Assembly: GCA_947449695.1 (NCBI GenBank)
Contig: CANFST010000002.1
Span: 1-64,000, forward strand
Direction: 5' to 3'
Length of the DNA stretch: 64,000 nt
Origin: Chitinophagales bacterium
GTDB lineage: Bacteria; Bacteroidota; Bacteroidia; Chitinophagales; CAIODY01
Part shown: piece by piece, positions 4,548-39,047 of the stretch
How the letters are laid out: every line of letters starts with the position of its first letter
Position numbering within the stretch: the stretch's first letter is position 1
Position numbers and translations under genes: made by a program
Notes under the pieces: generated by a model
What the model saw: the letters and a program-made list of their open reading frames with translations, nothing else
Told to the model about the DNA's origin: nothing
Database searches by the model: none

Positions 4548-6914
4548 ATGAAAAAATATTTCATTTTCTGTTTACTGATAATGAGTTTAATTAAAGCAAC
4601 TCATGCACAAAATTTTACCATAAACGGTTATATTAAAGATTCAGCAAATGGTGAAACATTTATAGGCAGCTCCATTCGAGTTGCTGAAAACGCCAGTATT
4701 GGCGCTACTTCGAATGCTTATGGCTTTTATTCACTCTCCTTACCAAAAGGAAATTACACTTTATTATACTCCTACTTAGGTTTTGAAACTGTTGAGAGAA
4801 AAATCGAATTGAATCAAAATTTATCAATCAATATTGATCTAAAAAAAAGAAACATATTAGAAAAAGCTATCGTAATTACTGATAAAAGGAAAGATGAATC
4901 AGTAAAGAGTACACAAATGGGGCAAATCGAATTAAGCACTGAACAAATAAAAAATATTCCTGCCATTTTTGGTGAAGTGGATGTAATGAAAGCGTTGCAA
5001 TTATTGCCTGGTGTGCAATCGGCTGGAGAAGGGCAAAGTGGTTTTTATGTTCGTGGTGGTGGGCCTGATCAAAATTTAGTTTTACTTGACGATGCAACAG
5101 TTTATAACACTGGGCATCTGTTTGGTTTTTTTTCAGTATTTAATTCAGATGCAATAAAAAATACAACATTGATAAAGGGAGGTATGCCAGCAAATTATGG
5201 CGGTCGTTTATCATCGGTTGTTGATGTAACCATGAAAGAAGGCAACAATAAAACATTTCATGGAAGTGGTGGCATAGGCTTAATAGCATCGAGGCTGACA
5301 CTAGAAGGACCGCTTAAAAAAAATAAAGGTTCGTTTGTTGTTTCGGGGCGCAGGACCTACATCGACGCAATTATCAAACCATTCATCAGCAACAGTCAAT
5401 TGAAAGGAAGTGGTTATTATTTTTATGATTTGAATTTGAAGGCTAATTATAAATTCAGCAATAAAGACAGAGTTTATTTAAGTGGCTATTTTGGAAGAGA
5501 TGTTTTTTCATTTAAAAACAGCAGCGGCACTTTGAATATTAATATGCCCTGGGGGAACTCAACTACTACAGTGCGTTGGAATCACTTGTTCAATGATAAA
5601 TTATTTTGCAATACCTCTGTTATTTATAATGATTACCAATTCAAAATTGGTTTATCACAAAATAATTTCAATTTAGGTTTGTTAAGCAGCATTAGAGACT
5701 GGAATGCAAAATCAGATTTTGAGTACTATTTGAATAACAAAAATCAGATGAAGTTTGGATTTAATTATATTTATCACACCTTCAATCCCAATGCTGTTAG
5801 CATCCAAACATCAAGTATTGATATTACTCCGGCTGACGAAAACAAACGTCATGCCCACGAAGCTGCTCTGTATTGGTTAGATGATTGGAGTGTAACATCA
5901 CGATTGAAAATAAATGCAGGTTTGCGTTATTCGTTTTATCAGCAGGTTGGGCAATACAACTATATTTTAACTGATAAAGATTTTCATCCAACAGATACAA
6001 TTCATTTTAATAAAGGGCAAAATGTAAAAACTTATGCAGGAGTAGGCGGTTTAGAACCCCGAATAACACTGCGTTATGAGCTAACCGAAAGTTCTTCGAT
6101 CAAAGCAGCTTATTCACACAACAATCAGTATATCCATTTAGTAAGTAGTAACGGAACTACATTACCAACCGACATTTGGGTACCAAGCACTATTTCAGTT
6201 AAGCCACAAATCAGTGACCAATATGCCATCGGCTATTTCAGAAATTTTAAACATAACATGTATGAAACCTCCGTTGAGTTGTATTATAAAAATATGCAAA
6301 ATCAAATTGAGTATCATGAATTCTATGTACCAACAGGCGATGGAAATGTAGAAAAGGATTTTATTTTCGGCAAGGGCGAATCGCATGGAGCTGAATTTTT
6401 CATCAACAAAAAAGAAGGTAAATTAACAGGTTGGATTGGATACACACTTTCCTTCACGAATCGAAAATTTGATTTATTAAACAACGGAAATTGGTTCCCA
6501 TCAAAATTTGACAGACGTCATGATATCAGTTTTGTAGCATCTTATGAGTTGAATGATAAATGGAAATTTGGAGCAATCTGGGTATATGGTTCAGGCAATA
6601 CTGCTACAGTACCAGATGCATTATATCAAATCAATGGTACATTGTATGAACATTTCACATCAGTAAATGCCTATCGTTTGCCATCATATCATCGTGGAGA
6701 TATTTCTGCCACTTACACACCAAACAAGCGAAATAAAAAATTTGAATCGAGTTGGACTTTTGCCATTTATAATGTTTACAGTCGTTTTAATCCATACTTC
6801 GTTTATCTGGATATAAATGGCAGTGTAACTGCAGGCACATCGAGCGTTACAGCAAAAGAAGTTTCAATTTTTCCATATCCATTACCTTCTATTACTTGGA
6901 ATTTTAAATTTTAA
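4548..6914 (+). CDS. TonB-dependent outer-membrane receptor with carboxypeptidase-regulatory domain
   Basis: The 788-residue receptor has a signal peptide ending HAQ (residue 21), a carboxypeptidase-D regulatory-like domain (residues 22-100, with GSSIRVAENASIGATSNAYG), and a plug domain with VMKALQLLPGVQS and GFYVRGGGPDQNLVLLDD. The rest is barrel, ending in aromatic WNFKF as outer-membrane proteins do. It should import a ligand using TonB energy. The gene is directly followed, after three bases, by a DUF4249 lipoprotein, the usual partner in this phylum. This is not SusC: there is no SusD gene. The substrate is unknown. Confidence 0.9.
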   Translation: MKKYFIFCLLIMSLIKATHAQNFTINGYIKDSANGETFIGSSIRVAENASIGATSNAYGFYSLSLPKGNYTLLYSYLGFETVERKIELNQNLSINIDLKKRNILEKAIVITDKRKDESVKSTQMGQIELSTEQIKNIPAIFGEVDVMKALQLLPGVQSAGEGQSGFYVRGGGPDQNLVLLDDATVYNTGHLFGFFSVFNSDAIKNTTLIKGGMPANYGGRLSSVVDVTMKEGNNKTFHGSGGIGLIASRLTLEGPLKKNKGSFVVSGRRTYIDAIIKPFISNSQLKGSGYYFYDLNLKANYKFSNKDRVYLSGYFGRDVFSFKNSSGTLNINMPWGNSTTTVRWNHLFNDKLFCNTSVIYNDYQFKIGLSQNNFNLGLLSSIRDWNAKSDFEYYLNNKNQMKFGFNYIYHTFNPNAVSIQTSSIDITPADENKRHAHEAALYWLDDWSVTSRLKINAGLRYSFYQQVGQYNYILTDKDFHPTDTIHFNKGQNVKTYAGVGGLEPRITLRYELTESSSIKAAYSHNNQYIHLVSSNGTTLPTDIWVPSTISVKPQISDQYAIGYFRNFKHNMYETSVELYYKNMQNQIEYHEFYVPTGDGNVEKDFIFGKGESHGAEFFINKKEGKLTGWIGYTLSFTNRKFDLLNNGNWFPSKFDRRHDISFVASYELNDKWKFGAIWVYGSGNTATVPDALYQINGTLYEHFTSVNAYRLPSYHRGDISATYTPNKRNKKFESSWTFAIYNVYSRFNPYFVYLDINGSVTAGTSSVTAKEVSIFPYPLPSITWNFKF

Positions 6915-6917
6915 AAA

Positions 6918-7826
6918 ATGAAAAGAAATATTTTTTTTCTGTTGATTTCAATAGCTACTGCTTTTGCAGCCTGCGAAAAAAATTATGATTTAACAGGCGT
7001 TAGTTCGCTACCACCTCAACCAGTTGTAGAAGGTTATATTGAGAATGGTGTTACACCTTATGTTATTTTGACTAATACATTTTCGCTTTTTGGTAATCTG
7101 TCATTAGCTACAGTAAGCAATATTTTTATTCATGATGCGGTTGTAACAATTACCAGCAACAAAGGAGAAACTATCAGTTTACAAGAGAAAAACATAACCT
7201 TTAATGGAAATAAAATTTATGTTTATTTACCAACTAATTTAAGTGATACTGGAAAATTAAACACAACCTACTTTTTAAATATTACCTTAAAAGATGGTTC
7301 AAAAATTTCAGCTCAAACATCAATTTTAACTTCACCAAAAATAGATAGTCTTTGGGGTGTTCCAAGGAATTCAACACCAACAGATTCATTGGTAAGATTA
7401 TATTTAAAAAGACATGACAATGCCTCTACTAAAGATTTCTACCGATATTTTACTAAAACTAATAATCAGCAGTTTTTGCCCGGGAATGTTCAAGGACTGC
7501 TTTCAGTATTTGATGATGAATACACCAACGGACTTACTTATGAATGGCCAATCAACAGAGGTATTGACAGAAATGATACTTCAAAAAAACAATTTAAACA
7601 CCCCTTCTATTTTGTAAAAGGCGATACTGTAACCATTAAACTTTGTGCAATCGACCAACAGGTATATGACTTTTGGCTCACTGCTGATAATGCTTATGGG
7701 AATGTGGGAAATCCATTTGCTGCACCATCAAATGTAAAAAGCAATGTAACAGGTGCATTAGGAGTTTGGTGCGGTTATGCCACTTATAATCCACCCAATT
7801 ATTACAAAATAATTATTCCTAAATAA
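6918..7826 (+). CDS. DUF4249 lipoprotein, partner of the upstream TonB receptor
   Basis: This 302-residue protein has a lipobox (FAAC, Cys18) and the DUF4249 layout: PQPVVEGYIENG near the mature N-terminus, then a beta-rich body, and the conserved end GNPFAAPSNVKSNVTGALG followed by VWCGYATY. DUF4249 proteins are surface or periplasmic lipoproteins encoded next to TonB receptors; a substrate-capturing role is inferred, not shown. It starts three bases after the receptor stop and is certainly in its operon. A second complete copy (14684) and a remnant (63185) occur in this window. Confidence 0.85.
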   Translation: MKRNIFFLLISIATAFAACEKNYDLTGVSSLPPQPVVEGYIENGVTPYVILTNTFSLFGNLSLATVSNIFIHDAVVTITSNKGETISLQEKNITFNGNKIYVYLPTNLSDTGKLNTTYFLNITLKDGSKISAQTSILTSPKIDSLWGVPRNSTPTDSLVRLYLKRHDNASTKDFYRYFTKTNNQQFLPGNVQGLLSVFDDEYTNGLTYEWPINRGIDRNDTSKKQFKHPFYFVKGDTVTIKLCAIDQQVYDFWLTADNAYGNVGNPFAAPSNVKSNVTGALGVWCGYATYNPPNYYKIIIPK

Positions 7827-25018: not shown

Positions 25019-27160
25019 TTAAAATACTAATTCTAAGACTTTACTGAAATTAGAAGTTCTATTGCTGTCATTAGAATCAATTAACCTAACAGTATAAATC
25101 ATTCCTTTTGCTCCTTTTATTTGGTCATCTGTAAAAGTGTTGTTATCCAATTTTATTGTTTTAAAAATCGCCCAAACATTTTCTTTTTTTTCTTTTCTAC
25201 TAATTTCTACCATTATTTTTTTTTCTATTAATTTCACATCAATTTGAAAATTAAGAACGACTGAATTTGTTTGATTATCGTAACTCCCTTTCAGAATTGG
25301 CGTTGGTAATTGATTGTTGAATATCGTTTTCAACAAAATACTCCTTGACATTTTCGACATCAATCCACCGTCATCTTTTGCAATCATAGTGTATTCATAT
25401 TCTTTTCCACCAATTATTTTTTTATCTATAAATGAGGTTGTTTGAATGTTCGAATTTGTGAAAATGGTATCGAATTTTATCACTCCTTTTTCTCTTCTTA
25501 ATAAATAATTTTTCGTGGCATCTTCGCTACTTGAATTTTCAAAATAAATAATCACAGCAGTGTCATTCACCGAAAATTTAGTGATGATTCCGCTTACTGG
25601 CGGAATGGTATCCCGTTTGGTTAATTCAATGATTTTTGAAGGTGCCGATTGATTAAAATGCGAATCAAAAGAAATCAATTTGTAGAACACTTTTTTGGTG
25701 AGCGTTTTTAAAGTTGAAGTATCGTGAATCGTAAAAATATTATTGCCAAGGCTATCATTAAAAGTTTGATGAATGATAGAAAATTCATGCTCGATATCAT
25801 TTGCTTTTTGCAATTCATACCCCATGAAATCTTTTTCAATATTGGGTTTCACTTTAATAGTAACGATGCCAAAGGAATCAATTGTTGCAGAAGTAACGAT
25901 TGGAACTGCTGGTGGTGTGCTATCAATTAAAGTAACATAAGATGGGAAAGATTGACTTGCATTACCTGCTGTATCCACTGCTTCAACGATGTAATAATTA
26001 AAACCATTTTTGTCGAAATTTTCATCAACAAATTTTGTAGTTGTGATGGGTAAAATTGTTTTTGAAATCAACATAAATTTACCATGCACGTCATCACTTC
26101 TTTTGATGTTAAATCCTTTCAAATCTGTTGTTTTCTTTGCATCCATTTCCCAAATTAATTCAACCTTATTAGGAGAAATATGTTTTGCGGATTTTAAATA
26201 AGGTGGCGGTGGAGATGTTAAATCACGAGGCGTTGCTTCAAACTCCGACAACAATAAATCATCTCCAAAAATGGTTGAAACCACCACTCGGTAATAATAT
26301 TTCTTGTAGTTAATCAATGCCGAATCACCATAACCAAAATCTGATTTTCCTGTATATCCATGCGCTCGTAATTTAATGGTTGGTGTTGTTGTGAGTTGTT
26401 TAAAGCTGACACCATTATCATCTGACCTTTCTACTTTAAAAGCATAATATTCTTTTGATTCGGGAAATGAAAATGAAATATTTCCATCGCCTTCTTTCAC
26501 TTTAACTACGTCGTTTTTTTTGAGATATTGTTCGTTGAAATTTTCGCATTTTGCTTTACAATAACTCCAACCTGTTTTTGATTTTTCATTTAAATTATTT
26601 ATGCGTATTCGATACACATAAGTTGTCCCGAAAACCACCTCATCATCATTTACTAAAAGTCCCAAACATTCAGCTGCTAATGCGCTTTGGCAGGTAGTCA
26701 TCAAAACAAATGCAAAAGTATTATCTGCTTTGTCTTGTTCCGCTTTTAATGTTTTTAAACCGCTGTTCAACACATCACCTTGCGCAACTTTTACACTTGT
26801 ATCAGTTAATGAATAAGCAAACCCTGCTAACTTGATGTTGTTGCTGTCATTCTTATTAACAGTATTGATTTTTTGCGCTAATTGTTGATTGCTCCAACGT
26901 TTGAATGGAGAATTTTTCAATGCTGTATAATTCAATTTTTCAATAGCAACACCTTGTTTCAAAATTGCTTTTTCAATTGTATAACCATTGCTGTTGGCTT
27001 CATTAAACAATATAGGTGATGTAGCAAAATATCTAAGCTCAATATGATTGGCATAGCTTCGAGCCACAATTGCAACATCCTGCTGAGCTTCATTTTTTGT
27101 TTGCGATTTTACAATTAAGCAAGCCAACACAATTGGAATAAGGACTAATATTTTTTTCAT
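25019..27160 (-). CDS. Exported fibronectin type III-repeat protein
   Basis: The 713-residue protein starts with a signal peptide (MKKILVLIPIVLACLIVKS) and has a unique 180-residue head. FN3-like repeats follow, with TYVYRIRINNLNEKSKTGW, KYYYRVVVSTIFGDD, FNYYIVEAVDTAGNAS, VFYKLISFDSHFNQSA, and EYTMIAKDDGG as the Y-x-V strand near each repeat end. At least five repeats can be counted. No type IX sorting domain is seen at the C-terminus. It ends an operon with a giant TANFOR protein and a beta-barrel protein and may be periplasmic or an outer-membrane partner. Confidence 0.7.
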   Translation of the reverse strand: MKKILVLIPIVLACLIVKSQTKNEAQQDVAIVARSYANHIELRYFATSPILFNEANSNGYTIEKAILKQGVAIEKLNYTALKNSPFKRWSNQQLAQKINTVNKNDSNNIKLAGFAYSLTDTSVKVAQGDVLNSGLKTLKAEQDKADNTFAFVLMTTCQSALAAECLGLLVNDDEVVFGTTYVYRIRINNLNEKSKTGWSYCKAKCENFNEQYLKKNDVVKVKEGDGNISFSFPESKEYYAFKVERSDDNGVSFKQLTTTPTIKLRAHGYTGKSDFGYGDSALINYKKYYYRVVVSTIFGDDLLLSEFEATPRDLTSPPPPYLKSAKHISPNKVELIWEMDAKKTTDLKGFNIKRSDDVHGKFMLISKTILPITTTKFVDENFDKNGFNYYIVEAVDTAGNASQSFPSYVTLIDSTPPAVPIVTSATIDSFGIVTIKVKPNIEKDFMGYELQKANDIEHEFSIIHQTFNDSLGNNIFTIHDTSTLKTLTKKVFYKLISFDSHFNQSAPSKIIELTKRDTIPPVSGIITKFSVNDTAVIIYFENSSSEDATKNYLLRREKGVIKFDTIFTNSNIQTTSFIDKKIIGGKEYEYTMIAKDDGGLMSKMSRSILLKTIFNNQLPTPILKGSYDNQTNSVVLNFQIDVKLIEKKIMVEISRKEKKENVWAIFKTIKLDNNTFTDDQIKGAKGMIYTVRLIDSNDSNRTSNFSKVLELVF

Positions 27161-27193: not shown

Positions 27194-30100
27194 TTAGTGT
27201 TGTTGATTATAGTTGTTGCTCACTACATCTGAATTGGTTTTGAAATAAATTGACTTGGTTTGCTTAATTGGATTAGTAGTATTTCTATGATTCACGGGCT
27301 TCCATACGCCATTTATTTTTTCTTGTAAAGCACCAACAATTTCAAACTTGTAACTTGTATTTGCTTTCAATGCATTGGTTGGTGCATTCGCAATACCGCC
27401 ATTCACCAAAGCATCTATCTTAAATAATTTTGCACCTAACTCATCATAGCCTGCATCCATCAATGAAAGAGAAAGTGCCATTGAAACTAAAGGACTTAAA
27501 CCCATTGTGGCACTACTGTGCATGACAGTGGCATTCGTATGTGAATGATTGATTGTAGCTGCGGAATTACTCTGTTGCTGCCTTTGGGTGTTAGTAATTT
27601 GCTGTTGTTGATTGCCCCCAGTTACTGTAGTTGCAGTTTGCCTGTGCACTGTGGTATTTACTGCTCCGAGTGAAGCTTGTGTTGTGGCTGAACTAATCGA
27701 ATCTTGTGTTAAAGTTGGTGTATAAAAGGCTCTGAAAGTTCGTACTTTTATTTGACCTGATGATTGTTGTTCTTGCAAAGCAAAAGTATCGTTGTAAGGA
27801 TAATTTAATAAAACAGAAAAATCAGTAGTACGTGAAATACCAATACCGCCGTTGCTGGGTGTAAGAATATTGTTGATTAAAACATAACTCAACGAATCAC
27901 TTACTTTTTGTTGCGTATAAACATTTTGGTTAGCAACTGCATCTTCTGTTCCTGCACATTGTGTTCCATTTGTAAAATGTTTATGAAATGGAACCGAATA
28001 ATCACAGATTGAAAAGTCGCCATCTAATTGTCCGTCAAAATAAGTTGGATTAGGAAATTCAGCGGTTGCATAAGCACTAGCAGCAACGCTTCCCAGTATC
28101 CCCGATGCTGGGTCAAACAAAGGTAAATTATAGGAATAGCCAATACTTGCACCAGCATAAACAGCCATACTTGCTTTGGCACGCCATCCTTTGCCAAGCC
28201 CGACACAACCAGAATATTGGAGGAATGATGCATCAATTTCTCCACCAGCAGCAATGCTGTAGTTAGCTCTTACATATCTGTCGCAACCACATACTTTGCC
28301 ATGCCAACCTGCAATGTTCCAACTATCTGAATTGCTATAATTTAAACCGACACCAAATGCAAATCCTTTCGCCGATTGATATTTATTATCGCCAGTTGCA
28401 TTATCACTAAATGCAGGAAGATTATGTCCGATGCTTGTAAATCCATTTACAGTTTCTTGCATAAATCCATGCGGTATATCAATATCGTTTCCAAATTCTA
28501 AATAAGAATGAATGCCAATTCCTAAAACTTTTACGCCATTTGGTTGAGTGGGTGTACCAAATTTGAAGAACCATTTATTTTGTAATCCATCTAAATGCAA
28601 TTTTGATTGTATCGCTGCATCGGTTGATAAATAAGGGGGTTTGGAGATATTGCACATCAAAGAAGCATCGAATAATTTATGAGGAAAATCGTATCGAACA
28701 GTAATTGCTCCGTTGGCAAACGCATCGGCTTCATGACCAATTTTTGCACCACAATTAAACAAACCATCTATCTGAATAAAATCCATTCCACCATTGGTAT
28801 TGAATTGTGCATCTAATGCAATACTGCCGTTAAAAGTTTCTTCTTTGGGCGAAGTAGCCACAATTGCTTTCACTTTAAAGCCAACACTTACTGCATAATC
28901 GGGTGTAAAAACAGCGCCGCCAAAAGTACTGCTTGCCGCCGTGGTCGGGTTAAAAACTGTTGGTGAAGTCATGTGCATTCGGCTGTAAATGCCAGCACCA
29001 AAACCTCTGAAAGCAATGCCCGGTAAAAATACGATACCCGGCGGAGGCAAATTTACTTGTGCTTGCACCATCCAATATTTGAATGCTGGAAGTGTATTGT
29101 TAGGAATGTATTTAGTGTTGCCAAATATTGCACCTGCTTGCACTGCAAGATTAAGGGTGGTAAATTTTACAGTAAGGTCGCCTTTAAAAGCATTGCCGTA
29201 AGTCAAATCATTTTTATAAAATTGAACATTGCCTTTTATTGATGCCGCAGCGATGGTTAAATCAACATGAACATCTTCTACTTTTACACCAATAAATCCT
29301 GATTTGATATGCGTTAAAAATCTCCAATCTTGCTTTACACTGCTTATTCCAGCAATTGATGTAGTGCCATATCTTGTTGATGCAACAGCACCTTCAATAT
29401 CAATTTTTGCATCGCCGCTGATGGCAACTTTATCCGTACCAATATTCATTTTTGCTTTGAAACAAACTCCACCTTTAAATAAATATTGCGATTCAGCCAC
29501 ACCCGGAATGATGGGTTCTATTTTAGGAACTATATCAGTAATTGTAAAAGCAAATTTGCAGATTTTTTTTTGTGGACTTGCAAATGACCAATTGCCTGTG
29601 TTGAATGTAAAATGTTCGGTTGCATTTTTTTGATATGTCATGCCCATGTGTTCAAAATCGCAGGATAAATCTAAATCGAGAGGGATGCTGCCGCTTGGGT
29701 CAAGTATGTGTCCTGTTGGGTAATAAAGTTTTCCATTTAAATCAACACTCAAAGCTATTTGCCTTTTGCAACCAGCAGTTTTTGAAATCGTAAGACTGAT
29801 TAAAGATGTTTTTTTAATCTGCAATTGTCCATCACCAAAAAACTTACTTTTTATTTCATGGTTAGGAGATAATGTAAGATACAAGGATGAAGTGTTTGCC
29901 GTAGCTGTGTTCGATGGTAAAAATATGGCTTTGTAATTAATCGCATTTGAAACATTATCAGATGAACTGATTGGTAATGTGATTTGCCCAAGCATCTCGG
30001 CTTTTGTTACTGCATTGTTGATGAAATTCACTCTTACAGTATCAATGCTTGCACCCAAATTTCCAACATTTGCAACAGGATAATTGATGATATTATATGC

Positions 30101-32281
30101 TCCAAATGCAGCCGACAAGCCATGTTTGTCAATAATTAAATCATGTACATTAACTCTTATTTTTTTTGTTGTATCAGCATAACTTCTTACTTCGTCAGGC
30201 AGGGTTAAGAATAAATCTTTGATAAAAAAACCTGTGAACATTTCATCTGTTTGTCCATTATAACCAGTTGGAAACTCCATGTCAGCAGCGTTGTTATTTT
30301 CCGAATGGTCAAATGTGATGGCTGATGCTTGAATACCCAAACCGTTTGTATTCGGGATGGTACAGGCTGGTAAATTTCCTTCCAATACAAAATCATTCCA
30401 TTTAGAAAATTGCGCCTGAAAATTAATAGCAACATTTTTTGAAGCTGTATCTTCCGGTATCAACCAAGCCTTTGGTAATTGAACATCGGCATCAAATTTA
30501 TAAGTCCAAAAATCATTAGGGTCGCCAAATTTTATTCCATTGCCAATATGTGTGCTATCATCTGTATTAAAAGTCATTTTCAACGAATCGGCATCGTTTG
30601 CAGTTTGCCCAACTCGGGCATAACGAAATGTAATGGACTGTTTTAACTTTATTTCGCCATTGATGGAATGTAAACCTGCATTAGTAAATTGTATTCCGCT
30701 ACCCTCCAAAGCAATAGCATCAGTGCCATACATGATGCTGTTATTTTTAAAAATTCCTTTTGTGTTCAATGATGCAATCACATCAAATTCAGCATGCTCA
30801 GGGTTGAAAACCATTTCTGTAAATCCAATTGCATTTAATGAATCGCCATTTGTAAAATAACCAATAGGCATTGTTTTAGCAGCCGAACCCATTGCGTTTA
30901 CATCGTTTGCGGCTGTAACCAATGGCTTATTTATTTTGTTCCATCGAATGTAGGATGCAACTGCTTTTATTTTTGAGGAAGTCCAAGCGCCAACGCCATT
31001 GCCCATTGCCAATGTATTCCATTGCGAAGGATAAGATTGAGATGGGTCGGAAATGGAATAAATTTTTCCGCTGCACAAATGATTGTTGCTATTAATTTTG
31101 ATACTATCGAATCGCACTTTAATTTTTCCTAACCATTTTACATACACAGTTCCTTTGCCCGACAAAGAATCATTTCTGCCTTTTGGTTTTTGGGTAAGAA
31201 TTAAATCAAAATTATCTGATAAATGAATGATAGAAGCCGAATCGAATATTGCAGTAGAAATAGAACCGCAAGTATTTATAGCGGCTGAATTAGTTGATGT
31301 TGTTGAACTTCGATGATGACCATGATTTTTTGTTGAGTCTGTTTTTATGCTTTTATTTCCATTATTTTGTTGGGTTGCTGTGTTGCCATTATTGCCATTT
31401 GTTGTGAGCATTCTTTTTGTATTCGCTCCTAATTTATATTGAAATGAACACACATCACTCAAGCCATTATTCTTCAATAAAAATCCGGGTGCAACTGTCT
31501 GAACTTGCAACGCATAAGTTGCTCCATTTTTCCAAACAATATTGTTTGATTGGGTAATCACAAAAAGTGGCGCAGCAATATTCGATTGATTTAAAACTAC
31601 ATTAATGCCTGCACCAGCATTGTTCATAGCATCTTGTGGTGTTGCACCTTCGGGTACTTCTACCATTGTTAAATGATATTTTATGTTGGGTGCAGCTGCT
31701 GCATTCCACTGAATGATGACAGGTTGTTGTGCATTTAAAACATTTAATTCTTCGCCACAAGTAGGCATTGTTATTTGCGATTGAGGCACTTCATAAATAC
31801 TAAATGTTGGACACGATTGACCCAACAAAACATCGGTTGCATAATCATATACATAAACACATTCCGTATAATTTCCTTCAGGAAAACTGGGTTGGTAAAT
31901 CAATTTATCTTTCTCAAATCCAATGAAATGAACATCATTGCCCGACATATCTTTGGTAAGTTGGTTGTAATTATTTCTATCAAAAATTACTGTTCTGCCA
32001 ATTCCTGCTGGAATATCAATCGCTGTTTTTGGTTTGTAACCAGTTGTTGTATTATCGGCACCATAAGCAGCATCATCACGTTTTATTTCAGTTAATACAT
32101 ACACCTTTTGCGCATCAACACTCATGTTGGTAATAATTAGTCGAACTTTATTTGTGCCGTTTCCAATGTAATCATTCACCAAATTGCTTTGTGGTGGGTC
32201 AAGAATCAGTTGCACATTTACTTGAGCATTTGCGAAGTGTATTAAAAATATCAAAACGGAAAGTGTAATTATTTTTTTCAT
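27194..32281 (-). CDS. Giant exported protein with N-terminal TANFOR domain
   Basis: The 1695-residue protein has a signal peptide (LIFLIHFANAQ) and an N-terminal domain of the TANFOR type (LVNDYIGNGTNKVRLIITN, PSFPEGNYTECVYVYDY, VIIQWNAA). Low-complexity Asn/Gly/Gln/Ser/Thr stretches follow near residues 295-335 and 1560-1610. Between them is a long beta-rich region with Gly/Ser repeats. No sorting domain or membrane anchor is seen at the C-terminus. It sits between the barrel and FN3 genes and shares their promoter. Its size and place suggest a surface or periplasmic filament or scaffold. Function is unknown. Confidence 0.65.
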   Translation of the reverse strand: MKKIITLSVLIFLIHFANAQVNVQLILDPPQSNLVNDYIGNGTNKVRLIITNMSVDAQKVYVLTEIKRDDAAYGADNTTTGYKPKTAIDIPAGIGRTVIFDRNNYNQLTKDMSGNDVHFIGFEKDKLIYQPSFPEGNYTECVYVYDYATDVLLGQSCPTFSIYEVPQSQITMPTCGEELNVLNAQQPVIIQWNAAAAPNIKYHLTMVEVPEGATPQDAMNNAGAGINVVLNQSNIAAPLFVITQSNNIVWKNGATYALQVQTVAPGFLLKNNGLSDVCSFQYKLGANTKRMLTTNGNNGNTATQQNNGNKSIKTDSTKNHGHHRSSTTSTNSAAINTCGSISTAIFDSASIIHLSDNFDLILTQKPKGRNDSLSGKGTVYVKWLGKIKVRFDSIKINSNNHLCSGKIYSISDPSQSYPSQWNTLAMGNGVGAWTSSKIKAVASYIRWNKINKPLVTAANDVNAMGSAAKTMPIGYFTNGDSLNAIGFTEMVFNPEHAEFDVIASLNTKGIFKNNSIMYGTDAIALEGSGIQFTNAGLHSINGEIKLKQSITFRYARVGQTANDADSLKMTFNTDDSTHIGNGIKFGDPNDFWTYKFDADVQLPKAWLIPEDTASKNVAINFQAQFSKWNDFVLEGNLPACTIPNTNGLGIQASAITFDHSENNNAADMEFPTGYNGQTDEMFTGFFIKDLFLTLPDEVRSYADTTKKIRVNVHDLIIDKHGLSAAFGAYNIINYPVANVGNLGASIDTVRVNFINNAVTKAEMLGQITLPISSSDNVSNAINYKAIFLPSNTATANTSSLYLTLSPNHEIKSKFFGDGQLQIKKTSLISLTISKTAGCKRQIALSVDLNGKLYYPTGHILDPSGSIPLDLDLSCDFEHMGMTYQKNATEHFTFNTGNWSFASPQKKICKFAFTITDIVPKIEPIIPGVAESQYLFKGGVCFKAKMNIGTDKVAISGDAKIDIEGAVASTRYGTTSIAGISSVKQDWRFLTHIKSGFIGVKVEDVHVDLTIAAASIKGNVQFYKNDLTYGNAFKGDLTVKFTTLNLAVQAGAIFGNTKYIPNNTLPAFKYWMVQAQVNLPPPGIVFLPGIAFRGFGAGIYSRMHMTSPTVFNPTTAASSTFGGAVFTPDYAVSVGFKVKAIVATSPKEETFNGSIALDAQFNTNGGMDFIQIDGLFNCGAKIGHEADAFANGAITVRYDFPHKLFDASLMCNISKPPYLSTDAAIQSKLHLDGLQNKWFFKFGTPTQPNGVKVLGIGIHSYLEFGNDIDIPHGFMQETVNGFTSIGHNLPAFSDNATGDNKYQSAKGFAFGVGLNYSNSDSWNIAGWHGKVCGCDRYVRANYSIAAGGEIDASFLQYSGCVGLGKGWRAKASMAVYAGASIGYSYNLPLFDPASGILGSVAASAYATAEFPNPTYFDGQLDGDFSICDYSVPFHKHFTNGTQCAGTEDAVANQNVYTQQKVSDSLSYVLINNILTPSNGGIGISRTTDFSVLLNYPYNDTFALQEQQSSGQIKVRTFRAFYTPTLTQDSISSATTQASLGAVNTTVHRQTATTVTGGNQQQQITNTQRQQQSNSAATINHSHTNATVMHSSATMGLSPLVSMALSLSLMDAGYDELGAKLFKIDALVNGGIANAPTNALKANTSYKFEIVGALQEKINGVWKPVNHRNTTNPIKQTKSIYFKTNSDVVSNNYNQQH

Positions 32282-32290
32282 AAAAATCAG

Positions 32291-33991
32291 TTAGAATGAA
32301 TAGGTGTATGAGGTAAGGAAATGCAAGTTTGTATAGTTGGAATACGATTGGATGAAATTTATTCCGCCGCTGAAATTAAAGCTGTGATGCTTGTTTGGCA
32401 CATAACTAAGATTTAAATTGTTTACAAATGAAGTGCTAATCAATTGTTGATTTTGCAAACTTTGCTGAAGCCCATTGCTATAACCAATTGATAATTTGTT
32501 TTCAAAAAAAGATTTATTAGCTGATAAATTGATACCCTGATTATTTGAATTGCTATAAGCCGAATTAAACTGACTGTAAGTAATTCCGCCTGAAATTCCG
32601 TATCCTTTTTTTAAGTTGGTGTACACGTTAGTAATCATTGCAACAAGAATATTATTTTGATTGGCTGCCGCATTCAAACCAGTTGTAGTTGAAAATTGAT
32701 TAGTAACCAGACCAATAACTGTGTTCGAAAAATTTGTTTTGATAATCGTAAAATGTGGCGAAACTGAAATGCCTTGATTGTTGATGCGTTGCAAAATAGA
32801 GTCGCTAAAAGTGGCTACTGTCTTCACTTGTCGGTTCGTGAAAATATTGTATGATAAATCAATACCCCATTTGTTGGATGGATTAATGGCAATGTTGCAA
32901 TTACCACTATTTCTAAAAACCGTTACAGCTTTTTGATTCATCACATTATTTTTATCTGCCGTTATTCCGCTGCTAAATCTGATCTTATTTTTTAGCAATG
33001 GAAAAGATAATTGTGCTTTGCCTCCCATATCGTCAGCCAAATAACTAACAATACCAAGTGAACGATAAAACGGAGAAATAAATCGATAGCCAGTTTTGAA
33101 ACTGAAACTTTTATTAACGTAGGCTACATTAGTTTCGGCTGCGCCTTGCAACAAAGTAGAATATCGAGGTGTGATAATATTTTGAAGAAAACTATTGATT
33201 GAATTGTTAGAAGATGAAATTTCATTGCTTCTGATATCGCTCGTAAATGCTGATAATGCTGCATTGCTTTGCCATGTGATGTGTTTGAAAAATTTGAATT
33301 GCGAATTAAATCCGCCAACTGCATTTTCTTGTCCTTTTAATGCTGTATCTTTTATTGCCGTTGGAATAGAATGAATATCATCGGCAATGTGTAAATAAAC
33401 CAAATCAAAAAAATTATTTTTCGTTCCCAGTCCAATTCTAGCAGCATAGCCCATTCGCTTATAACTTGCTCCCAAATAATTTTTAGGTTTGTTAGATGTA
33501 GTATCTTCTGCTTGCGCTTTTTTAAATTCACCATAAATAATTCCTGCTCTAAATTTCTTTGGATTTATTTCAATGCCACCGCCCAAAAAAGTTTGTCCAT
33601 TTAAAATAAATGGTGAAAATGAAATGCTTCGCCAACCTAAATGCAGAGTTACCCATTTATAAGTTGGCGACATGCCATATCGTTGAAATAATTTAGGTTT
33701 TGAAAAACTGAATTTTGTATCTGCAAAGGTGGCTGAAAGCGGAATGCTCCAGCCGTATATTTTCATATTGACACTTGCAAAAGCATTCCAATAGAATGGC
33801 GTTGGCGATTGTTGGCTTACTTCACTTGATGAAACCCAATTGGAAGCAACACCAATGCTACCATTTATCACAAATGGTTTTTGCGATTTCAAAGCAGATA
33901 AATCTTGACTTGTTGCGCTCAAACAGCAACAGCAGATTATCACTAGGAAAAAAATAATTTTTGCAAATTTTATTTCAAAAAGAAATTTCAA
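32291..33991 (-). CDS. Outer-membrane beta-barrel-like protein
   Basis: The 566-residue protein has a signal peptide with an unusual Cys run (VIICCCCLSATSQ). The rest is strand-rich with alternating aromatic residues (KWVTLHLGWRSISFSPFIL, FRAGIIYGEFKKAQ), ending LHFLTSYTYSF, an aromatic C-terminus of the outer-membrane type. It resembles no plug-bearing receptor. It is the first gene of the operon with the TANFOR and FN3 proteins and has an operator-like palindrome directly upstream of its promoter. A translocon or anchor for the giant protein is a reasonable guess. Confidence 0.6.
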   Translation of the reverse strand: MKFLFEIKFAKIIFFLVIICCCCLSATSQDLSALKSQKPFVINGSIGVASNWVSSSEVSQQSPTPFYWNAFASVNMKIYGWSIPLSATFADTKFSFSKPKLFQRYGMSPTYKWVTLHLGWRSISFSPFILNGQTFLGGGIEINPKKFRAGIIYGEFKKAQAEDTTSNKPKNYLGASYKRMGYAARIGLGTKNNFFDLVYLHIADDIHSIPTAIKDTALKGQENAVGGFNSQFKFFKHITWQSNAALSAFTSDIRSNEISSSNNSINSFLQNIITPRYSTLLQGAAETNVAYVNKSFSFKTGYRFISPFYRSLGIVSYLADDMGGKAQLSFPLLKNKIRFSSGITADKNNVMNQKAVTVFRNSGNCNIAINPSNKWGIDLSYNIFTNRQVKTVATFSDSILQRINNQGISVSPHFTIIKTNFSNTVIGLVTNQFSTTTGLNAAANQNNILVAMITNVYTNLKKGYGISGGITYSQFNSAYSNSNNQGINLSANKSFFENKLSIGYSNGLQQSLQNQQLISTSFVNNLNLSYVPNKHHSFNFSGGINFIQSYSNYTNLHFLTSYTYSF

Positions 33992-34046
33992 AAGTTGGAT
34001 TAGGTTTGGTTTTTTGCTGCAATCAATTATTGCATTGCAATTTCCG

Positions 34047-34094
34047 CAAACCTATTGGTGAAAAAGGTTTCACACAATTACCATTTATGGTAAT
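34047..34094 (-). promoter_or_regulatory. Promoter with NarL-type 7-2-7 palindrome for the barrel/TANFOR/FN3 operon
   Basis: On the minus strand the palindrome ATTACCATAAATGGTAAT (34094-34077) runs straight into the -33 TTG (34077-34075). A 20-base spacer leads to a perfect -7 box TAGGTTTG (34054-34047). Heptamers TTACCAT and ATGGTAA with two bases between match the 7-2-7 layout of NarL-family operators. Its position next to -33 suggests activation. The start codon is 55 bases downstream of the box. A near-identical site, at the same distance, lies upstream of the regulator gene. Confidence 0.7.
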
Positions 34095-34146
34095 ACAATT
34101 TATAAAAAGAAGAAATCGGGAAAATGTTTTAGAAAAATCGGATGGA

Positions 34147-34770
34147 TTATTTCGGGAATGCTTTATTCAATGCCTCTACTTTATTTTGAACTTGCAATTT
34201 TTGGTAGATGTTTTGGATGTGCTTTTTTACTGTTTCATAACCTACTTCAAGCGTAACAGCAATTTCTTTGTACAAAAAACCTTTAGCAAGCAAATCAAGA
34301 ATTTGCTTTTCTCTATCGGTAAGTATTTCGATAGTTTCATTCTTTTTGTTTTGCAAGGACACCACCACTCTTCTAGCAATTTCGGGGCTCATCGGCGAAC
34401 CACCTTGGTGCATTTCCAAAATCAAATCTAATAATTGTGCTGGCGAAGTTCGTTTTAAAATATAACCCGTTGCACCAGCTTTTAATGCGTTAAAAATATT
34501 TTCATCATCATCAAAAACGGTTACCATCATAAAATGTGTAGCAGGCATTTTAGTTTTTAAAATGGCAACTGCTTCAATACCCGAAATACCCGGCATGTTA
34601 ATATCCATCAACACAACATCCAATTTTAATTTGGGAAGTTCATCCATTGCTTCGGTTGCAGATGGATAAGCATTTAGGCAAGTATATCCATTGGAGCCAT
34701 TAATGAGCGTACGCATGGCTTCACGGATTTCGTTATTATCTTCCACTATTGCCACTGTAATATTTTCCAT
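34147..34770 (-). CDS. NarL/LuxR-family response regulator
   Basis: The 207-residue regulator has a receiver domain (VAIVEDNNEIREAM, phospho-acceptor Asp in DVVLMDINMPG, Lys in GYILKRTSP) and a LuxR-type helix-turn-helix (LTDREKQILDLLAKG, YETVKKHIQNIYQKL). It follows its propeller kinase gene by 73 bases on the same strand. Its own promoter carries a palindrome of the type also found before the barrel/TANFOR operon, so it likely activates both. Confidence 0.92.
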   Translation of the reverse strand: MENITVAIVEDNNEIREAMRTLINGSNGYTCLNAYPSATEAMDELPKLKLDVVLMDINMPGISGIEAVAILKTKMPATHFMMVTVFDDDENIFNALKAGATGYILKRTSPAQLLDLILEMHQGGSPMSPEIARRVVVSLQNKKNETIEILTDREKQILDLLAKGFLYKEIAVTLEVGYETVKKHIQNIYQKLQVQNKVEALNKAFPK

Positions 34771-34791
34771 CTTTATTTTTAGATTAATGGG

Positions 34792-34839
34792 TAAAACTAC
34801 ACCACATTAAATTTCAAATTCATTCCCATTTAGGGTAAT
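34792..34839 (-). promoter_or_regulatory. Promoter with NarL-type 7-2-7 palindrome upstream of the response regulator
   Basis: On the minus strand the palindrome ATTACCCTAAATGGGAAT (34839-34822) has the same 18-base frame as that at 34077-34094, with 16 of 18 positions identical. A weaker -7 box TAGTTTTA (34799-34792) starts 23 bases below the palindrome, the same distance as at 34077/34054. The regulator start is at 34770. This suggests autoregulation. Confidence 0.6.
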
Positions 34840-34843
34840 GCTT

Positions 34844-37732
34844 TTATTTTTTTATTGGAATGGAAATTTCTATTCGTGTTCCATCTTCATTTTTTATAGA
34901 AAATTTTCCATCCACCTCTTTCATTCGTTTTGCCATATTAATTAAGCCATTACCAAAGGCCGATGATTTTGAGCCATCAATTCCTTTTCCATTATCATGA
35001 ATAATGATGCTAAAAAAATGCGTACTCATTTCAAACGAAATTCTTACTACATCTGCATTTGAATGTTTCAAAACGTTGTGCAACGCTTCTTTTACTACCA
35101 AAAAAATATTCCGTCTTGTTATTCCTTCAATATTAATTGACGGAATAAAATCGGGTGTGTTTACCAAACATTTTATGGTTGTATTTTCAAAAAATTCAAC
35201 AGCATATTTTCTTGTGTAAGCAATCAAATTATTCAATTGGTCATTTTTTTCATTCATCGACCAAATAATATTTCCCATTTGCTCTACCATTTCTTTGCTC
35301 GAACGTGAAATGTTTTCTAAATGAAGTTTCGTATCGCCATCAGCCGAATCCTGATTTATCATGTCACTTAAGAAAGAAATTTTTGATAAACCCGAACCTA
35401 AATCATCGTGCATTTCCGAACTGATTCTTGCCCTATCGGCTGCAATGGCAATGTGTTGGTCTAATTTCTTTTTTAATTGATAGCGATATAAACTATACAC
35501 AATGGTTGCTATCAATGCAATTATGAATAATCTAAACCACCATGTTTCCCAATAAGGTTTGTTGATTGTAAATGAAAAAGTTGCATGGTCATTTACCCAT
35601 GTGCCATTTCCTTTGCGCACTTGTACAGCAAATGTATAGGAGCCGGGCATTAAGCCCGAATAAACTACAGCATTTGAAAATGTAGTGTTCCAACCAGTAT
35701 CAGTAGGAACTAATTGATAGCGATATTGCAATGATTTAGCATTGCGAAATGATAAGCCGTTATAAGTTATTCTGATGTTATTTTCATAGTAAGCAAGTGT
35801 GTAATTCGATTTCCAATCAACGTTTGTATTGTTTATCTCCAATTGAGTGATATATACTTTGGGCGATTCAATTGGTGTGTTTAAATCAGCTTCATTAAGT
35901 ATTAATAAGCCTTTATCGGTACTCAATAATATTTCACCATTGCTTGCTGATACTGAAAAAATAGAACCACATAATAAACCATTGCTGGGGTTATAATTTT
36001 TTATTTCTACAACATTTTTTTTGTTCATCGTAATTACCGACAAGCCGTTATTCAATCCTAAATAAATTTTTTGTGAAGTAGAATCGTAATACAAACTTGT
36101 GCAAACATTGCTTTGCAAGCCGTTGGTCGTATTTATAAATTTAATTTTACCCTCCGTAATTATTGCAAGCCCATTATATCGGGTAGTAACCAGCATAGTT
36201 CCGTCTTTTATTTTGCTGATGTCGTCTATCCAACCGGCAAACGATTTTATTTCATGATGAAAAGGAATCAGCGAATCGTTTTTCCAGATAAAAAGTCCTT
36301 TCTCTGTACCTAGCCATATTTCATTAGCAGCCTTTTCACAAATAGAATAAATCCGAAAAGCATTACCCCACTTAGAACTAAATGTTATAAACTGTGATTT
36401 GCCATTTTTGTATTTCGTAAATCCATTAAACCCACCAGCTATTATGGTTCCATTAATACCAATAGCTAATGATTTCGAAGCAGCATCTAAAGTGCAAAGG
36501 TTTTTTAATGTAGTTTCTTGTTGCAGAAAAATATTTTTCTGACTTAGTATATATGCTCCATTACTCCCGTCATTAATTATTTTTCGCACTTCGCCAGCTT
36601 TCATATTTACCGACTTCTCAATTTTATTCTTGGCATCAATGATATGTACATAGCCATTTGTAGTTCCACAGATTATTCTGCCATCATTCATTCGCAAAGC
36701 AGCAGTAATGTTATTATCCTGCAAGCCCGATGATTTATCAAACAATTTAATAGTTAATGCTGGCACCATCAGCAAGCCTTCGCCTTTCGTTGCAAACCAA
36801 AAATTTCTATCCTTATCCTGATAAATATTATTGATAGCTATGCCTTCAAAATATTGATGTACATCAGTTAGTATTGCCTTGTCATCAATTTTAAATCGGT
36901 ACAAATTAGTGTTATCTGTATTCCAAAAATAACCTTCTCTGTCGGCTATTATCACACATCCATTTTTATTGCTGATGGATTTTTGATTGCCCAAATAACT
37001 GAACCTATGATGTTGATAGGAATACATACCTGCATCAGCTACTATAAGTAATACATCACTTGCATTATTATAATAGCTAAAAAAACGACTATGGATATTC
37101 ACTTTCAAAACAGCAGCGTTTATGTTTTTTCCATCATCAATAAAGTTGTTTGTTTGAGTGATTAAAACAGAACTATCTTTTTTTTCAAAAATGTTGTTAG
37201 AAAATCCGTGTTTATAAATTTGCAACATGGTATCTTTTAATACATAAATGTTTTTTTCATTTGCATTAATCAAAATATCGCCATTATATAAAGGCGTAAA
37301 AGCAACAGCATAATGTTTAAATTCTAATTGATTTAACCATGGCGTATTGCTGCTATTGTGCACCATTCCATCGGCATAATACGACATTGGCCCTGTGAAT
37401 GATTTAAACCAAATGCGCCCCCGTTTATCTTCAATCACCATCAATACTTCATTATCGGGCAAGCCATTTTCGATAGTGAAATTTTCAAATCGAGTGCCAT
37501 CAAATTTTGATGCGCCTTTATCAGTAGCCACCCATATATAGCCTTTTGAATCTTGTGTGATTTGATAAATTAAATTGCTGGGCAAGCCATCATCTACCGT
37601 GAATTTTTTGTAAGGTGGATTTTGGGCAAAACAATTGTTACAGAAAAATAAAACCAATAATACAAAGCCGCATGGTATTATGGCTTTGGTAACGATGCCC
37701 GTAGGTAAGCCGATTATTTTTTTACTTGCCAT
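34844..37732 (-). CDS. Sensor histidine kinase with propeller and Y_Y_Y domains
   Basis: The 962-residue kinase has a signal-type N-terminus (CGFVLLVLFFC), two-component propeller repeats (GLPSNLIYQITQDSKGYIWVA, GLPDNEVLMVIEDKRGRIWF and weaker copies) and a Y_Y_Y domain (residues about 620-710). A membrane helix (WWFRLFIIALIATIVYSLYR) follows, then HisKA_3 with ARISSEMHDDLGSGLSKI, and HATPase boxes VVKEALHNVLKHSN and IIHDNGKGIDG. It is a full-length kinase that should phosphorylate the NarL-type regulator just downstream. Its start lies inside the hsdS 3' end (11-base overlap). Confidence 0.88.
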   Translation of the reverse strand: MASKKIIGLPTGIVTKAIIPCGFVLLVLFFCNNCFAQNPPYKKFTVDDGLPSNLIYQITQDSKGYIWVATDKGASKFDGTRFENFTIENGLPDNEVLMVIEDKRGRIWFKSFTGPMSYYADGMVHNSSNTPWLNQLEFKHYAVAFTPLYNGDILINANEKNIYVLKDTMLQIYKHGFSNNIFEKKDSSVLITQTNNFIDDGKNINAAVLKVNIHSRFFSYYNNASDVLLIVADAGMYSYQHHRFSYLGNQKSISNKNGCVIIADREGYFWNTDNTNLYRFKIDDKAILTDVHQYFEGIAINNIYQDKDRNFWFATKGEGLLMVPALTIKLFDKSSGLQDNNITAALRMNDGRIICGTTNGYVHIIDAKNKIEKSVNMKAGEVRKIINDGSNGAYILSQKNIFLQQETTLKNLCTLDAASKSLAIGINGTIIAGGFNGFTKYKNGKSQFITFSSKWGNAFRIYSICEKAANEIWLGTEKGLFIWKNDSLIPFHHEIKSFAGWIDDISKIKDGTMLVTTRYNGLAIITEGKIKFINTTNGLQSNVCTSLYYDSTSQKIYLGLNNGLSVITMNKKNVVEIKNYNPSNGLLCGSIFSVSASNGEILLSTDKGLLILNEADLNTPIESPKVYITQLEINNTNVDWKSNYTLAYYENNIRITYNGLSFRNAKSLQYRYQLVPTDTGWNTTFSNAVVYSGLMPGSYTFAVQVRKGNGTWVNDHATFSFTINKPYWETWWFRLFIIALIATIVYSLYRYQLKKKLDQHIAIAADRARISSEMHDDLGSGLSKISFLSDMINQDSADGDTKLHLENISRSSKEMVEQMGNIIWSMNEKNDQLNNLIAYTRKYAVEFFENTTIKCLVNTPDFIPSINIEGITRRNIFLVVKEALHNVLKHSNADVVRISFEMSTHFFSIIIHDNGKGIDGSKSSAFGNGLINMAKRMKEVDGKFSIKNEDGTRIEISIPIKK

Positions 37733-39047
37733 ACTTCACTTTTTCTTCCGCTGCCATTGCCAACGCTTCTTCTGCTTGCTTTACGCTGACTTGCCCATTC
37801 ATCAACATGGGCAATAACCAATCACGAAGTGAAGTGAGTTGTTGGTTTTCAGATTTGTTATTGATTATTTTCTGATAATTGATTGAAAGCATTTCATTGT
37901 ATTTATCAATTAATATTTTGCTCGGAATTAGCAATGGAATATTATCTATTTGGTCGCTGCTAATATTGGGTTGTGCAGCTCCGCTTGCTAATACAAAAAC
38001 TGTTTCTCTAAAATATTTTTGGTTCAGTGAATTAATTAAGAATGGCAGTTTTATTAATGGTTCTTTTCCTAAATCAAATAAAGCAACTCGTTGATTTACT
38101 AAAATCGGTTTATTAATTTTAGGTACAATTCCATACTTGCCAACTGTTGCTCCTGTCATAGCAATTACAACATCACCAGCAAATGCTTCATAGTTTTTTG
38201 CTCTTTCATATTTATCTTCTCCAACAAAAGAACAGCCTTCAATGCTAAGTGTATAATCTTCGTTAATATCTTTAATTTTTATTACTGGCAAACCTTCATC
38301 TGACCACCATTCCGATTTAAAAGCAAAGCCACCTTTTGCTTTAGCATAACTTCCAAACGTTCCAACCTCCCAACCCTCTGGCACTTCACGTTTTAATTCT
38401 TCGTTCCACACCATTTTGCCGCCGCTGCTTTTGTAGGGAAGCCCCACCCCAGCCCTCTCCAAAGGAGAGGGTGAAGGAAAATCAAACTGCACAAACCAAT
38501 AATCATAAATGGTTTTTGCCATCGCTTCTAACTCGGCATTGATGCGGTTGTTGAGTTCGATTTTGGAATCGAGGGAAGAAAGTACAGAAGCGATTTGGCG
38601 TTGGGTTTCTAAATCTTCTGGAACTGTAAATTCTATGCTTCTTAAATTCTCATTATAAATTCTATTTATGGTGCTACCATTGGTAGTTATCCATGGCTTT
38701 GTTTGATAAAAGTAATAGAGGTATGCATTTAGTACTTTACTTTCATTGTTTTCAATCCAAACAATATTGGAGTCTTGAAAATATCCGTCTTCACCATTAT
38801 AGATAACAGTTTTCCCGATTGTCCCTGCGGCAGAAATTAAAATATCTCCTTTTTTAGGAAATGAATATTTCTCTTTATACTCTAAAAATTTTTCTCTTGA
38901 AATAAATGTATCCGCTTTCCCTCCGAAAGTTGAAATTTTATAAAAGGGAATTTTCTCAAATTCTGAAGTTTCTTCCTTTAGAATACGCTTGCACATTGCA
39001 ACTTTTCCAATATCTCGAATAAAATATTTTTTTAGTTTTCTACTCAT
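37722..39047 (-). CDS. hsdS: Type I restriction-modification specificity subunit
   Basis: HsdS contacts DNA and sets the two half-sites recognised. The 441-residue protein has two target-recognition domains, residues 1-150 and about 225-370, each followed by a helical conserved spacer (RQIASVLSSLDSKIELNN and NEMLSINYQKIINNK). The first spacer normally runs FDFPDxxGxPYKSSGGKM; here it contains SPSPLERAGVG from a repeat (38436-38477), in frame. The last 11 bases overlap the propeller kinase gene. It belongs with hsdM and hsdR upstream. Confidence 0.88.
   Translation of the reverse strand: MSRKLKKYFIRDIGKVAMCKRILKEETSEFEKIPFYKISTFGGKADTFISREKFLEYKEKYSFPKKGDILISAAGTIGKTVIYNGEDGYFQDSNIVWIENNESKVLNAYLYYFYQTKPWITTNGSTINRIYNENLRSIEFTVPEDLETQRQIASVLSSLDSKIELNNRINAELEAMAKTIYDYWFVQFDFPSPSPLERAGVGLPYKSSGGKMVWNEELKREVPEGWEVGTFGSYAKAKGGFAFKSEWWSDEGLPVIKIKDINEDYTLSIEGCSFVGEDKYERAKNYEAFAGDVVIAMTGATVGKYGIVPKINKPILVNQRVALFDLGKEPLIKLPFLINSLNQKYFRETVFVLASGAAQPNISSDQIDNIPLLIPSKILIDKYNEMLSINYQKIINNKSENQQLTSLRDWLLPMLMNGQVSVKQAEEALAMAAEEKVKYGK
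38436..38477. repeat. GC-rich hairpin repeat inserted in frame in hsdS
   Basis: A 42-base insert with an 8-bp hairpin (CCCTCTCC / GGAGAGGG, 38453-38471) shares the core CACCCCAGCCCTCTCC with the repeat at 49500-49545 on the other strand. It keeps the reading frame and adds SPSPLERAGVG to the HsdS spacer. Confidence 0.65.

Follow-up and report, generated by a model that had tools for sequence, protein, structure and literature searches.

A palindromic operator pair at a fixed promoter distance suggests a local NarL-type two-component switch for an outer-membrane barrel operon in a Chitinophagales bacterium

Results

Genes of the locus

The window analysed here, i.e., the whole stretch of 64,000 nucleotides, carries on its minus strand a sensor histidine kinase, a response regulator and a row of envelope genes. 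The kinase (34844-37732, 962 aa) combines a Reg_prop propeller with Y_Y_Y, HisKA_3 and HATPase domains and is the presumed partner of the regulator. A type I restriction specificity gene (37722-39047) lies directly upstream and shares 11 bases with the listed start of the kinase, whose transcription may come from the restriction operon. The regulator (34147-34770, 207 aa) contains a receiver and a GerE/LuxR HTH domain, both scoring over the cut-off (PF00072, 4.4e-26; PF00196, 3.4e-16), which places it among the NarL/FixJ (LuxR-HTH) response regulators, while the NarL equivalog of NCBIfam stays below its cut-off (124 vs 250 bits). Its nearest solved structures include VraR and NarL, VraR being the closest (8.6e-32).

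The first envelope gene encodes a 566-aa outer-membrane beta-barrel protein (32291-33991, minus strand), modeled with about 25 strands at a mean pLDDT of 77; its best Foldseek matches are outer-membrane barrels, distant ones with TM at most about 0.5. It is followed on the same strand by a giant secreted protein of 1695 aa (27194-32281) and an FN3-type protein of 713 aa (25019-27160). The giant itself shows no match to TIGR02542 (TANFOR), nor was a toxin domain detected; it is termed TANFOR-like by homology to a paralog in its own genome (34% over residues 3-283), which matches TIGR02542 at 3e-7 with 30.4 bits, under the cut-off of 67. A WG-repeat protein (PF14903, 23995-24966, minus strand) and two DUF6498 proteins (PF20108, 22632-23998, minus strand) are probable downstream members, judging from the close spacing, and the adjacent DUF6498 pair with which the presumed operon closes is a candidate for membrane partners or immunity functions. 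The description of this unit as a giant envelope operon in the initial annotation is a fair one. Homologs of the barrel or the giant were not found in the same-genus genomes G001 and G002. A second barrel-giant-FN3 operon is present in the window's own genome (L329, G000:C1:33000-46000); its giant is a weak TANFOR match, and neither a kinase, a regulator nor a palindrome-plus-box site was found there. An FN3 homolog accompanies the barrel and the giant in L327, L328, L329, L331 and L333.

Two operators with the same promoter geometry

Two palindromes on the minus strand, 745 bp apart and both situated at promoters, were found where the initial annotation had placed them, and 16 of their 18 bases are identical. 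O1, ATTACCATAAATGGTAAT (34077-34094), lies between the regulator gene and the start of the barrel gene at 33991, upstream of the barrel operon, and is conserved in orthologs; it is a perfect 8-2-8 palindrome (16/18 symmetric positions). O2, ATTACCCTAAATGGGAAT (34822-34839), occupies the 73-bp gap that separates the kinase from the regulator, upstream of the regulator gene, and is an imperfect palindrome with 6/8 arm pairs. The resemblance to NarL-family operators was upheld in layout and not in sequence. The sequence TTACCAT-AA-ATGGTAA within O1 does form two inverted heptamers with a 2-bp spacer (7-2-7); however, the heptamer consensus of E. coli NarL is TACYYMT, the window heptamers TTACCAT and TTACCCT do not conform to it, and the site is shifted by one base.

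The -7 boxes, identified by consensus as being of the TAnnTTTG type, are TAGGTTTG for the barrel operon (34047-34054, minus strand) and TAGTTTTA for the regulator gene (34792-34799, minus strand), the latter with a final A instead of G. The equal palindrome-to-box distance reported earlier proved correct: 22 bases intervene in both cases (34077 to 34054; 34822 to 34799). If such a box occupies -12 to -5 (PMC9723704), transcription is predicted to start near 34042 and 34787, respectively. A -33 TTG (34075-34077, minus strand) abuts O1 and precedes the -7 box by 20 nt, as it does at the target promoters of orthologs; the regulator promoter of the window is devoid of this element.

Rarity of the sites

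The initial annotation had named a wide and random occurrence of the motif as evidence against its reading. This was looked for in the whole 3.14-Mb genome, and no third place with at most two mismatches was found; about 20 matches with three mismatches exist, nearly all inside ORFs. Also a search for a wider regulon in the same genome (two patterns, then operator plus -7 box) returned only O1 and O2 with both halves and the promoter geometry. A matrix trained on ortholog sites only scored the two window sites at 23.2 and 17.3 of a possible 28.5, ranking them first and third within the 64-kb window; in shuffled windows 0.08 matches per 64 kb are expected to reach the weaker site and none the stronger one. 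Other matrix matches were discarded, the one at 4614 being inside an ORF that starts at 4548 and the one at 38499 inside the type I specificity gene. Among 399 genomes of the order, the pattern TACCNNAAATGGNNAT-(20-23)-TANNTTT occurs twice only in the window's genome and once in each of 15 others; its backwards control gave 10 matches in all. The term regulon used previously is thus too wide, because only two sites exist in the genome, and the switch looks local rather than genome-wide.

Conservation with the regulator

Four close relatives of the regulator, all from metagenome assemblies, were retrieved by a regulator search (L106, 75% identical; L107, 67%; L108, 65%; L109, 61%), and each of them has a kinase gene next to it. 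The operator is present upstream of the regulator gene in 4/4 of these orthologs, and a second copy stands behind the regulator, before the next gene, in L106, L108 and L109; none was found behind the regulator of L107. Additional promoters with a copy lie near L106 and near L109 (one each), and the genomes of L108 and L109 each contain a distal copy as well. Across the window and the orthologs, the operator and the -7 box are 21 or 22 nt apart in 13/13 sites. Target promoters always show 22 nt with TTG touching the operator; ortholog regulator promoters show 21 nt and, except for L108, no TTG, and the regulator promoter of the window combines 22 nt with the absence of TTG. The regulator sites of L108 and L109 read TACCCAT-AA-ATGGTTA. 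The recognition segment TVKKHIQNIY is identical in 5/5 regulators (window and L106-L109). The closest same-genus homolog of the regulator, L068 (48%), is a different case, as no such operator was found there.

The surroundings of this constant pair are variable. On the input side, the kinases of the window and L106 have a Reg_prop propeller and those of L107-L109 have TPR (L107 and L109 judged from sequence only). The second operator of the window precedes the barrel/giant/FN3 operon; in L106 the gene behind it encodes a TPR-SpoIIE phosphatase, in L108 an Ig-like protein carrying a CHU_C type IX signal, and in L109 a protein that is weakly trypsin-like. Thus the regulator and its operators persist as input and cargo change.

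Two additional observations concern the leaders and small ORFs behind these operators. A DUF805b RNA (RF02914) is found in the transcript leader just behind the operator promoter at 5/5 non-regulator operator promoters found in the genomes of L108 and L109, in some cases as tandem copies (L108 5801-5836; L109 5809-5846 and 7332-7369; L207 1401-1433; G063:C270:6022-6056); none was found in the window. As a general partner of the operator it was rejected, because most DUF805b copies in these two genomes lack an operator. Behind the third operator of L106 there is a small ORF (6938-7462) whose short degenerate repeats include CTTVQTISPTVQ; it matched no Pfam family.

The barrel operon is also associated with this regulator family elsewhere. 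In two genomes of another family, G048 (L327) and G036 (L328), the barrel, giant, FN3, regulator and kinase genes stand in one row on one strand, as one operon, and the regulator is 37% identical to that of the window. Upstream of the barrel gene a TACC/GGTA palindrome, GTACC(T/C)TATTTATGGTAT, ends 22 nt before a -7 box, TAACTTTA; the L327 heptamers are TACCTTA-TT-TATGGTA. This row with its operator is evidence from outside the window that links the regulator family and the barrel operon.

A spacing rule in the wider regulator family

The DNA upstream of 106 regulator genes, 93 once similar ones had been strictly removed, was examined for 8-2-8 palindromes with at least 6/8 pairs ending before a TAnnTT[TG] box. 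Such palindromes end 21 bases before the box in 13 cases and 22 bases in 5, compared to 0.56 per offset elsewhere, and the family-wide peak is given by the even symmetric register, odd spacers producing none. Counted per gene, a palindrome at 21/22 nt is present in 17 of the 57 regulators with a -7 box (shuffles: mean 1.3, maximum 7 in 2,000), so that most of these genes have none by this test; when the window and its orthologs are left out, 14/53 genes remain (shuffles: mean 1.2, maximum 6). In the control genes, 5 palindromes were counted at offset 22, and there may be true targets among them. The operator sequences are diverse across the family (ATCATCCATTTGGATGAT, ATCACTAACATTAGTGAC, ATACGGAATCTTGCGTAT, ATCACATGTACATGTGAT and others); nevertheless, the outer heptamer bases, T2 and A17, are constant in 18/18 listed sites, which were selected for symmetry and spacing and not for these bases. 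In L287 a second operator pair flanks the regulator, ATACCACTAAGTGGTAT lying upstream and ATACCACTAAGTGGGTAT downstream of it. L090 and L091 have a symmetric bidirectional promoter, in which a single palindrome has a -7 box exactly 21 bases off on either side; it serves the NarL-type regulator in one direction and a receiver-type gene in the other.

Discussion

Proposed switch and its alternatives

Our analysis makes it highly probable that the locus is governed by a two-component switch with positive feedback, in which the NarL-type regulator acts through O1 and O2. At the level of sequence the reading draws on two sites, a fixed geometry, conservation together with the regulator and a gene set that recurs; phosphorylation, binding, activation rather than repression, and feedback are what we infer. 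The propeller kinase would phosphorylate the regulator, and a regulator dimer would bind the two 7-2-7 operators centred near -43.5. Each operator lies directly upstream of, or abuts, the -33 region of a presumed sigma-A promoter, where the bound dimer could recruit RNA polymerase; O2 would then drive the regulator's own gene and O1 the barrel/TANFOR-like/FN3 operon. With the box at -12 to -5 the operator centre falls at -43.5 or -42.5, and an operator abutting the -35/-33 element at a fixed place, as in class II-like activator sites, is observed in the 13 sites and family-wide. The self-regulation and control of the neighbouring operon suggested in the initial annotation remain the best reading, with binding as a prediction, in view of the ortholog site pairs, the operon of the other family and the family-wide palindromes. 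As the regulator's own promoter carries a site, the feedback should be positive if the regulator activates.

One could argue that the regulator binds both operators as a repressor, blocking polymerase from a position beside or over -33, so that negative autoregulation would be combined with a barrel operon released by the signal. The operators do touch the -33 region, the barrel promoter core TTG-N20-TAGGTTTG is near-consensus and could fire unaided, and NarL-type regulators are able to repress (PMC4549865). However, many unrelated operators share the 21-22 nt spacing, and a tolerance of a single base points to an activator contacting polymerase, a need that a repressor does not have. Additionally, the regulator promoters are mostly without the -33 TTG, as expected where an activator is needed. 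Thus we regard repression as unlikely. Even less probable is that another DNA-binding protein reads the palindromes and the adjacent regulator is incidental: the genome does encode three further full-length NarL-type regulators, but these are only 28-31% identical to the 34147 protein, four other genomes show the operator travelling with the regulator, and regulators with an unchanged recognition segment also have an unchanged operator core. Finally, a chance repeat or an RNA hairpin or terminator after the kinase gene is barely credible and the hairpin reading was rejected, for although O2 begins 5 nt past the kinase gene and as RNA has a folding energy of -7.6 kcal/mol (z = -3.2), the folding of O1 does not exceed that of shuffles (z = -1.05), a U run is absent, shuffled windows rarely match even the weaker site, and other genomes conserve the sites together with their fixed spacing from the -7 box.

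A portable cassette

Returning to the activating switch, we find it somewhat easier to accept than to reject that the regulator and its two operators form a portable, self-activating cassette, and that the 7-2-7, 21-22-nt rule runs through much of the regulator family in Bacteroidota. If this is true, evolution keeps the regulator and the operator sequence and swaps the sensor, be it a propeller or a TPR kinase, as well as the cargo behind the second operator: a barrel/TANFOR-like operon, a SpoIIE-type phosphatase, a T9SS adhesin or a trypsin-like protein. Such regulators are common among the Bacteroidota genomes that were searched, and descriptions of their operators were not found in a limited search of the open-licence literature. 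A fixed operator-to-promoter rule would make binding sites and targets predictable from sequence, and the operators, hence the targets, of many uncharacterised two-component systems could be read upstream of the regulator gene. The barrel/TANFOR-like locus, for its part, gains a concrete candidate regulator; the class is proposed to include polymorphic toxins, and its control is not described in PMC7073777, the text of which makes no mention of a histidine kinase, response regulator or two-component system.

Comparison with known systems

The operon resembles the TANFOR loci of Bacteroidota, proposed as polymorphic toxins, in that giant secreted proteins are encoded beside FN3-type genes (PMC7073777); it differs from them in the giant, which has neither the TIGR02542 match nor a detected toxin domain. 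With the envelope-stress regulators of the VraR/LiaR type the window regulator shares its closest solved relative, VraR. These are autoregulated two-component systems; however, they come from Firmicutes, have other operators and targets, and are not known to be linked to a TANFOR/barrel operon.

The nearest parallel in promoter architecture is provided by E. coli NarL, which activates ogt from a 7-2-7 site abutting -35 with its centre at -44.5; for activation of yeaR it uses one 7-2-7 site located immediately upstream of -35 (PMC7419079). Both systems have a GerE/LuxR HTH regulator and inverted heptamers with a 2-bp spacer, and the window operator likewise abuts the -35/-33 region and is centred near -44 (PMC7419079, PMC4549865). 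Contrastingly, the window has the heptamer TTACCAT instead of TACYYMT, a Bacteroidota -7/-33 promoter and a propeller-domain kinase in place of NarX/NarQ, and its regulator, as proposed here, controls its own gene together with the adjacent operon.
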